A DNA stretch of 36,649 nt from Candidatus Beckwithbacteria bacterium (GTDB lineage: Bacteria; Patescibacteriota; Microgenomatia; UBA1400; UBA1449). The position numbers were made by a program, and so were the translations under genes. How positions within the stretch are numbered: position 1 is the first letter of the stretch; each line of letters starts with the position of its first letter. The DNA lies in assembly GCA_012797845.1 (NCBI GenBank), contig JAAZOH010000032.1, positions 1-36,649 of the forward strand, given 5' to 3'. Below are positions 11,094 to 13,070 of the stretch, one piece after another. Under the pieces are notes generated by a model. The model was not told the origin of the DNA and did no database searches. It saw nothing but the letters and a program-made list of their open reading frames with translations.

Positions 11094-13070
11094 GTGAAGC
11101 TTAGAAAATTTTTTCTCAGTCTATTTTTTATTTTAGGTTTTTTGGTCTTAGTAAAGCCTGCTTTGGCTACAGATCCAAATAGTTTTACTTTTGATGATTT
11201 TACTCAAGGTGGGGCCAAATTAGCTGGCGTACCATTTCAAGTTACTATCTATGCAAAAAATAGTGGTGGAACAACAGAGACTGGTTTCAATGGTCAAGCT
11301 TATTTGACAGATGACACAGGAACGATTGCTCCAACTGTAACTGGCAATTTTATTAATGGTGTATGGACTGGGAGTGTTTACATTACCAGCGCAGATGAAG
11401 ATATCCAAATGTATGTTGACTATGGAAGTGCTAGTGGCACTTCTAATCAATTTACAGTTGGTCCGGATACAAGAATAAAGTTTATTACTATTGTAAGTGG
11501 AAGTAATCAAAGTGGCACAGTTTACTCACAGCTTGGTCAATCTCTTATTGCTAAAGTGACCGATCCTTTTGATAATCCAATTTCTGGAGTTGGGGTTAAT
11601 TTTGCTATTACCAGTTATCCACCAAAATCAACAGGACAAGCTCTGACAAGCACTTCAGCAACAACAGCCGCTACTACTGGCAGAGCTAGTACTGCATTAA
11701 CCTTGGGAAGAAAAGATGGGACATACGTAGTGACAGGTAGTATTACATCCGGAGCCAGTACACCGGTACAATTTTATGAAACTGCCATTGCTGGGCCGAC
11801 TATTTCTTTATCTATTAATCCAACTTTGGCAGTGATGCCGCAAGGAAGTCAACTACCTTTCACTGTTAAGGGCTATGATCAATATCAAAATGAAAAAACT
11901 CTTTCGAGTGTTGCTTGGTCAGTAGTAAATAGTGGAGGAACCATTGATGGTGCTGGAGTTTTTACAGCTGGGGCAACTAATGGTAATTACATAAATACAG
12001 TTAAAGCAACAGCTGATAGTCGAACAGCTTACGCTTCCATTTCAGTTATTCCGGAAGATCAAGGCACTGGTTCTGGTAGTGGTAGTGGGAGCGGAACTGG
12101 TGAAGAAGGTACTGGTTCAACAGCTACTCCTAGTGCTACACCCACACCAACCCCAATTGAGATTTCTCAAGTGATTGTAGATCCGGATTTTATTTCAGCC
12201 CTGTCGGGAGCAACAATTCCGATTACTGCTACTGCAGTTGACTCAAGTGGTAGCGTAGTCACCGGAGTTGCTTATAGTTTTTCTATTAGCGGTGATTTAG
12301 GTACCCTGGTTCAACAAACACCAAATACAGTTTTGTTGACTGCATCAGAAACTGGAATTGGGACAGTAACAATTAGTGCTACTCAAGGAAATGTTACCAA
12401 GGTTGCTAAAATTGTTGGTAGTGTGGGTACTGGTATGAATAGGAGGTTGGTGATTGAGAATATTGCTAGTCCACAAAAAGTGGGTGAACCATTTACAATT
12501 TCTATTGCTGCTAAAAACTCACTCAATGAAATGGTAACCAATTACACTGGTCCTTTGGCGCTTGCTGATACAACTGGCACTATTGACCCAGCTACAGCTA
12601 GCCCTTCTGCTAGTGGTTTATGGTATGTCCAGGCCATTATTGGTTTAGCTTCTGACGAGGTAACAGTGACTGTGGCTGGAGATGGTATGGTGGGAGTAAG
12701 TAACATTTTTAGAGTTGAAGGAGAACCACGAATGGATCAGGTTGGTATTGGAGCTGGTGGAGCTGGCGCTGGGTTGGGAGGTGTAAAAGGAGCCTCTATT
12801 GCTGCTCAAATTCAGGATTTTTTGAAAGATATGAAATTAGGTGGTAGTGGAGGAACTGGTATCAAATATATTGGAGCAGGGTTGGCTGCTGGCGTAGGAA
12901 TTTTGGGGGCCAGTATTGGAGGTGGAATTATGGTCAGTCGTGGTTTGGAAGCTATTGGGCGTAACCCCTTTGCCAAAGGACGGTTACAGTTTAATTTATA
13001 TGGTAGCATTATTGCCTTTTTAGCAGCAGCGGGATTAGCTTTAGCGGCAGCTGTGTTTATTTTAAAATAA
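11094..13070 (+). CDS. Exported Ig-like repeat protein fused to an ATP-synthase c-subunit-like hairpin
   Basis: The protein has 658 residues and starts at GTG 11094. Residues 1-25 are a signal peptide ending ALA. About five Ig-like modules follow: roughly 27-132, 135-232 ([14 protein letters not shown], Big_1-like), 235-325 (Big_2-like), 356-447 and 452-545. A Gly/Ser/Thr/Pro linker (about 326-355) divides them. The first and last modules resemble each other ([14 protein letters not shown] versus [14 protein letters not shown]). A Gly-rich stretch leads to residues 590-658, a clear F-type c-subunit hairpin: glycine-rich helix 1 ([20 protein letters not shown]), loop LEAIGRNP (619-625), then helix 2. 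The essential helix-2 Asp/Glu is absent: Leu643 takes that place and neither helix has an acid. The c-subunit N-terminus faces outward, so the fusion is topologically sensible. b-like and delta-like genes follow. The fusion is seen directly; its role is unknown. Confidence 0.85.

Follow-up and report, generated by a model that had tools for sequence, protein, structure and literature searches.

By its sequence, the fused c-subunit gene described here is part of a second, dedicated F-type-like gene set that is separate from the ordinary ATP synthase of the same Candidatus Beckwithbacteria genome. This set combines a c hairpin that lacks the ion-site acid and is fused to a signal peptide and an Ig-like region with dedicated b, delta, alpha, gamma, beta and epsilon subunits, and has no second subunit a. 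As judged from the genomes compared, the set is conserved in two bacterial families (type A), and a more diverged relative with the same logic (type B) occurs throughout the phylum. We propose that the second complex is probably a rotary machine that hydrolyses ATP, is uncoupled from ions and acts on surface domains, where we infer rotation, surface role and purpose. The window, i.e., the whole stretch of DNA that was analysed (36,649 nucleotides), contains the fused gene, termed c2, and the features collected in Table 1.

Table 1. Features of the fused c-subunit gene and its neighbours, numbered from the first letter of the window.
Feature	Position	Strand	Basis
Divergent helical protein, 188 aa	10454..11020	-	No Pfam match; next to c2 also in G001 and G003
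c2, type A fused c subunit, 658 aa	11094..13070	+	ORF list, profile matches, relatives
Predicted signal peptide of c2, residues 1-25, cleaved between PALA and T	11094..11168	+	Hydrophobic stretch 1-28; cleavage site judged by eye
c-subunit hairpin of c2, residues 590-658	12861..13067	+	Pfam, PDB, Foldseek, relatives
Arg623-Asn624-Pro625 polar loop	12960..12968	+	Invariant in four aligned type A proteins
Leu643 codon, ion-site position	13020..13022	+	L, M, I, V and V across five type A genomes
b2, b-like peripheral-stalk subunit, 173 aa, one N-terminal membrane helix	13133..13654	+	NCBIfam ATP_synt_b, E 5.9e-6, below cut-off
delta2, delta/OSCP subunit, 194 aa	13651..14235	+	Pfam OSCP, E 2.8e-16, 60.5 bits against a cut-off of 22.3

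The c2 protein starts with the signal peptide, followed by about 530 residues of Ig-like beta domains, a short amphipathic segment and the C-terminal c hairpin. The N-terminal region gave a Big_1-like match (E 7.9e-6) that stays below the cut-off. An AlphaFold model of the full-length protein was poor (pLDDT 46.6); Ig-like stretches at about 240-320 and 355-450 reached a pLDDT of about 60-85 and the remainder was poor. The C-terminus is a genuine F-type c hairpin, in which both the fold and the polar loop are present. On its own the hairpin scored 19.5 bits (E 0.0012) against Pfam ATP-synt_C, and together with its frame neighbours 25.4 bits against a cut-off of 24. It matched c subunits in the PDB with E 2.8e-6, and ordinary c genes of relatives with up to 48% identity (E 8.7e-12). 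With the best-matching solved c subunits, local similarity ends just before the ion site. Foldseek assigned a probability of 1.00 to Chloroflexus c subunits, with no E below 0.001 and on the basis of a modest model (pLDDT 62). Upstream of c2, the helical 188-aa protein is encoded divergently in the window genome, in G001 and in G003, and it is a possible regulator or accessory of the c2 complex.

The initial annotation had placed Leu643 at the position of E. coli Asp61 and had noticed no Asp or Glu in either membrane helix. Both observations were confirmed. Leu643 lies 18 residues after Pro625, exactly as Asp61 follows Pro43 in E. coli c (taken from NC_000913), and no alignment with authentic c subunits placed an acid at the ion site. 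The sole acid within residues 590-658 is Glu619, which belongs to the LEAIGRNP motif, where helix 1 ends on the cytoplasmic side. Since its equivalent is present in ordinary c subunits too, Glu619 is no substitute for the ion carboxylate. Helix 1 proper holds neither Asp nor Glu, and Ala606 stands at the place of E. coli Ala24. As a control, c-like short ORFs of order relatives were inspected at 26 loci, and Glu was found at Pro+18 in all 25 that could be parsed; the one locus that the script failed to parse belongs to the window genome itself and, reading GLAFAEA, also shows Glu. The missing carboxylate of c2 is therefore not background variation. We rejected a relocation of the carboxylate to helix 1 of the kind seen in the E. 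coli Asp24/Asn61 protein, because helix 1 of type A is free of acids. As a substitute ion site, a Glu within the b2 membrane helix was likewise discarded, as only the window genome has it among five b2 proteins. Read from these sequences, the complex is very probably uncoupled from ions, in agreement with the earlier suggestion that its ring is unable to couple ion flow to rotation.

A whole-genome search of the window genome (1.28 Mb in 46 contigs, listed as 100% complete) revealed how the two sets are distributed. A single subunit a gene (atpB) lies at the end of contig C10, and none is dedicated to the c2 set. A normal c gene (atpE) with Glu opens contig C18, and after it come b, a short delta, alpha, gamma and the first part of beta. 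We infer that the two contig ends join as one canonical operon that was broken by the assembly. The second F1 set is located on C10 and consists of alpha2 (572 aa), gamma2 (294 aa), beta2 (479 aa) and epsilon2 (87 aa). Two adjacent membrane ORFs of 467 and 320 aa (L013:9015-11384) lie between gamma2 and beta2 and are perhaps one split glycosyltransferase-like gene. Searching with the alpha/beta domain gave four strong matches, namely alpha1, alpha2, beta2 and a distant one on C36 (105.7 bits) that is taken to be a putative Rho; the canonical beta is cut by the contig end. A weak ATP-synt_C match on contig C41 was rejected, as it is by eye a long multi-helix membrane protein and not a c subunit. 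The canonical delta (L015, C18, 862-1209) has 115 aa, and its Pfam match crosses three in-frame stops; similar single in-frame stops are seen in G025 and G038. This delta is either truly short or affected by sequence errors. With a separate atpE and a single atpB elsewhere in the genome, and with neither ion carboxylate nor subunit a of its own, the c2 set is not a normal ATP synthase, as had been suggested.

Among the 53 relatives drawn, an Ig-fused c2 was present in five, and the other 48 lacked such a fusion. The carriers are all three genomes of the window's family f1 (G000, which is the window genome, G001 and G002) and both genomes of family f2 (G003 and G016). In a class-wide draw of 373 genomes no further long-frame type A member was found; G001, G002, G003 and G016 were not among the matches listed for that draw. 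Type A looks confined to two families. The c2 proteins of G002, G003 and G016 are 52-59% identical to that of the window, and c2 frames of more than 650 aa are open in four genomes. None of the five restores the acid; the ion-site residue of G001 was read from a broken gene that is interrupted and holds unknown residues. In all five genomes b2 adjoins c2. G003 and G016 encode the whole set in a single operon, c2-b2-delta2-alpha2-gamma2-beta2-epsilon2, without atpB, while in the window's own family, where alpha2 to epsilon2 were located in the window genome, the c-b-delta genes lie apart from the F1 genes. Each of the five genomes has only one subunit a, and the copy of G001 is broken.

The alpha3beta3gamma core has all checked catalytic residues intact, as far as sequence alignments can tell. 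In beta, the P-loop Lys of Walker A, the catalytic Glu and the Walker B Asp were present in 16 of 16 rows (3 type A, 9 type B and 4 canonical, including E. coli), and in alpha the P-loop Lys and the Arg finger were found in 16 of 16 rows (3 type A, 8 type B and 5 canonical, including E. coli). NCBIfam models identified alpha2 as atpA (544.9 bits against a cut-off of 484.45) and beta2 as atpD (611 against 462.85). The epsilon subunits of types A and B have 82-97 aa, except for L133, whose ORF was called from an upstream start and has 117 aa, compared with 138-144 aa in the canonical operons of G003, G016 and G039. This short length indicates that the C-terminal domain is gone. In many bacteria this domain restrains hydrolysis. 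The alpha N-terminus is longer, with 50-69 residues before the column of E. coli residue 25, compared with 23-31 in canonical rows.

In the alpha tree, type A (support 100/100), type B (99/97) and the canonical sequences together with E. coli (100/99) each formed a clade. Type A joined the canonical clade weakly (86/61), and a joint clade of types A and B was not rejected in an AU test (p 0.114). Within the beta motif PSxxGYQ (PSAVGYQ in E. coli, position 263), Ala is replaced by Glu in all 3 type A and all 9 type B sequences and in none of the 4 canonical ones, E. coli included; in G025 the PSExGYQ motif reads MSE. The shared Glu hints at a kinship of types A and B. It is a possible shared signature or a possible regulatory change near the nucleotide site, and archaeal-type subunits may share it.

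Type B proteins are 250-300 aa long. They begin with a sequence resembling a signal peptide, continue with a small beta domain of another kind and have a c hairpin that lacks the acid; F1 genes follow most of them. Of 373 genomes in the window's class, 121 gave a full-length type B protein with a profile built from six proteins. This count rests on 136 full-length rows of 142 tabulated and disregards the weaker rows listed, for the most part giant proteins that share a related domain. The N-terminal domain of type B also matches inside ORFs of 1000-4400 aa. In a draw across the phylum, 48 of 379 genomes carried type B (rows picked by eye), 38 of them outside the window's class. From 36 loci, three of which could not be parsed, we obtained 33 proteins (31 distinct loci) with I (18), L (5), V (4), A (3), G (2) or T (1) at the ion site. 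No acid occurs from Pro+8 to the end in any of the 33, and a carboxylate on helix 1 was also dismissed, with none found between Pro-36 and Pro-13. Ten loci picked from other classes likewise had no acid at Pro+18 (V, F, F, I, V, I, G, L, L and V), and eight of them had F1 genes alongside. The RNP loop is kept in the acid-less hairpins.

Carriage of type B is INDEPENDENCE from ATP synthesis, since it is kept with or without an ATP synthase. Subunit a was found in 238 of the 373 class genomes, and 38 of the 121 type B carriers lack it. The resulting counts (both 83, type B only 38, subunit a only 155, neither 97) gave a Fisher p of 0.21, so that type B carriage is independent of subunit a. A closer search of 20 genomes placed subunit a at one site in 12 (one of them broken) and nowhere in 8. 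Furthermore, of nine genomes searched for alpha and beta, six (G012, G036, G220, G255, G266 and G345) yielded a single alpha and a single beta at E below 1e-40, each of type B; all six lack subunit a and four of them are single contigs. Some type B operons include b and delta and others read c-alpha-gamma-beta-epsilon. No delta was detected in the whole genomes of G012, G036 and G255 (three of seven searched), so the usual peripheral stalk is missing in some type B systems and a standard stator is unlikely in that subset. G016 and, from partial loci, G001 hold canonical, type A and type B sets together. Because of this co-occurrence, types A and B likely have different tasks.

Several observations concern the surroundings of type B operons. 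Giant tail-fibre-like ORFs lie next to them at 5 of 8 loci, and at 5 of 10 loci of other classes at E below 1e-5 (L134:8088-11891, L135:8273-12577, L138:1-4498, L053:4921-8001 and others); the one in L134 overlaps the start of the type B c gene by four bases. ORFs of 566-569 aa between c and b in two type B operons were considered as counterparts of the Mycoplasma 12-TM protein and rejected, as they encode phosphoglycerate mutase and have no membrane helix. This enzyme (GpmI) adjoins the type B c gene at L136:9476-11176, L137:14916-16625 and L051:1472-3112 (G266, G345 and G016), named by NCBIfam for the first two and by eye for L051. By analogy, it may parallel the phosphoglycerate kinase bound by the G1-ATPase of Mycoplasma mobile. 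At L149 (G575:C2), two fused c-like genes (3825-4577 and 10038-10859) flank one F1 operon on the opposite strand, and they are possibly alternative rotors for one motor.

In the mechanism that we propose, the c2 hairpins would form a ring with the Gly-rich helix 1 inside, and the RNP loop would still grip the foot of gamma and epsilon. In standard c subunits the polar loop contacts gamma and epsilon, and both ends face the outside. With both ends outside, a signal peptide and an N-terminal fusion, the Ig domains would come to lie outside the membrane with an unbroken topology. While b2 and delta2 would hold the alpha3beta3 head, ATP hydrolysis would turn gamma, the ring and a crown of Ig arms against the stator, and no ions would be moved. 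The acid-less ring would free the motor from the proton gradient, and loss of the epsilon C-terminal domain would remove a brake on hydrolysis. The output might be mechanical work at the surface, such as adhesion, gliding, or the handling of a host or fibre. An invariant loop together with an ion site that drifts among aliphatic residues fits selection for ATP hydrolysis and rotor grip, freed from ion coupling. Against the rotary reading stand the type B genomes G012, G036 and G255, which without delta have no usual stalk, the poor full-length model of c2, and the separation of c-b-delta from the F1 genes in the window's own family.

Instead of a motor, the complex might be a stable scaffold that displays the Ig domains, with F1 kept for assembly or regulation and without useful rotation. 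Ig-like domains occur on many bacterial surface proteins, and in the type B operons without b or delta torque could not be resisted in the usual way. However, a scaffold would not need a full alpha-beta-gamma-epsilon ATPase. The catalytic residues and the beta core are strongly conserved, and beta2 is 74-77% identical between the families compared with about 50% for c2, which makes a static role unlikely. The initial annotation had considered a complex that is structural or driven by ATP hydrolysis alone. The dedicated second F1, its intact catalytic residues and the short epsilon favor the second half of this suggestion over a purely structural role.

Somewhat less likely still is a function in ATP-driven export or assembly, in which surface fibres would be secreted or polymerised with the ring as their pore or platform, comparable to the related FliI/SctN ATPases that energise export. 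The frequent very large tail-fibre-like ORFs beside type B operons and weak matches of b2 to FliH/YscL models would fit this idea. Yet c rings are lipid-plugged, alpha2 and beta2 score above the atpA and atpD cut-offs and far below those of FliI/SctN, and genes for an export gate did not stand out in the neighbourhood of the operons. That c2 is a minor subunit of the canonical c ring, displaying Ig arms or tuning the ordinary ATP synthase, is improbable. Its hairpin is 37% identical to the window genome's own ordinary c over 66 residues, which makes co-assembly conceivable, but any acid-less subunit in a c ring is expected to block coupling, the operon is dedicated and has all F1 and stalk genes, and type B is also carried by genomes that lack subunit a, some of them single contigs with exactly one alpha and one beta. 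The loss of the key residue and subunit a, the split genes of the window's family and the interrupted G001 gene could point to a decaying ATP synthase paralogue, which is hardly credible given the long open frames in four genomes, the invariant loop and catalytic motifs, the same seven genes in two families and the same loss in a phylum-wide set.

More tentatively, and with somewhat less than even confidence, we suggest that Patescibacteria widely carry an undescribed class of rotary surface machines that run on ATP without ions and use the c ring as the rotating base of extracellular domains, and that the X0 protein of the Mycoplasma F1-like ATPases (Protein 5) is the same kind of part, i.e., a surface-fused c subunit stripped of its carboxylate. 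In type A the extracellular parts would be the Ig arms; in type B they would be the small beta domain, which frequently has giant tail-fibre-like proteins as neighbours. If this is true, not only mycoplasmas but also a very large bacterial phylum would have converted rotary ATPases into surface machines, and the route would be visible: subunit a and the ion residue were lost, the ring was fused to secreted domains and the epsilon brake was dropped. In that case, certain genomes whose annotation lists ATP synthase alpha and beta genes would have no ATP synthase (the six genomes with type B only). The second complex would offer a handle on how episymbiont-like cells act on their surroundings. 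Among the papers listed from the open-licence literature, preprints excluded, none was seen to describe a second F-type complex without the acid in Patescibacteria. Of 33 sampled CPR genomes, 10 lack the canonical complex (PMC10656485), and the available part of one study mentions Saccharimonadia with only F1 (PMC9166423), a report on which the type B genomes with one alpha and one beta may bear. Genome incompleteness is given as one possible explanation of incomplete subunit sets in the accessible text of PMC11738941; PMC7304191 does not mention ATP synthase.

Compared with the bacterial F1Fo ATP synthase, the second complex has a homologous c hairpin, b, delta, alpha, gamma, beta and epsilon with intact catalytic motifs, and G003 and G016 keep the same gene order from c to epsilon. 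The peripheral-stalk features are present, with delta2 above the Pfam cut-off and b2 weak but significant below its NCBIfam cut-off. Unlike the ATP synthase, it has no ion carboxylate in c and no dedicated subunit a, its c is fused to a secreted multi-domain region, its epsilon lacks the C-terminal domain and its alpha N-terminus is longer. The N-type (alternate F1F0) ATPase is similarly a second rotary ATPase beside an F-type one. N-ATPase rings, however, translocate ions, and the scores for the N-type models stayed far below the cut-offs (alpha 486.4 against 750.5, beta 511.7 against 752, gamma 44.9 against 282.35 and c 14.1 against 130.85 bits). For type III export ATPases (FliI/SctN), the best score of alpha2 was 211.7 bits against a cut-off of 619.1.

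The gliding motor of Mycoplasma had been named as a model for the complex, and this comparison is apt in spirit and fails at the level of family membership. Mycoplasma Type 2 and Type 3 clusters, the nearest precedent, encode F1-like ATPases for gliding and for the MIB-MIP system, and their authors detected no homologues of c, b or delta, as stated in the available parts of PMC3369863, PMC12994834 and PMC11864180. Against curated models of these ATPases, alpha2 scored 274 bits for MSC_0619 (cut-off 520) and 357.7 for MMOB1660 (600), and beta2 scored 417.2 for MSC_0618 (570) and 423.6 for MMOB1670 (850). These scores below the cut-offs, together with the presence of c, b and delta, indicate that the second complex is not a member of the Mycoplasma Type 2/3 family. 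In the portion of PMC3369863 that is accessible, the seven Type 3 genes comprise only homologues of alpha, beta, gamma and epsilon plus a 12-TM protein and two others; neither b nor delta nor any further F0 homologue is reported there. In contrast, the complex described here has recognisable c, b and delta subunits, and no 12-TM ORF was seen in the operons read. The G1-ATPase (Type 2) of Mycoplasma mobile is alike in being an F1-like ATPase that is proposed to rotate and to hand this rotation on to surface proteins; the available text describes dimeric chains, GliD/GliE and a phosphoglycerate kinase bound by beta as its own features, and describes no c ring (PMC11864180). A scan with NCBIfam gave no match to a Protein 5 model. 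As far as the accessible passages go, the Type 3 F1-like X0 ATPase resembles the second complex as an extra F1-like ATPase beside the normal one that is tied to surface work (PMC3369863, PMC12994834). Its Protein 5 is described with a signal peptide, a large and possibly surface-exposed region and two uncharged C-terminal membrane helices, a layout that agrees with c2 and with type B c when compared by description only, with no Mycoplasma sequence (available part of PMC3369863).
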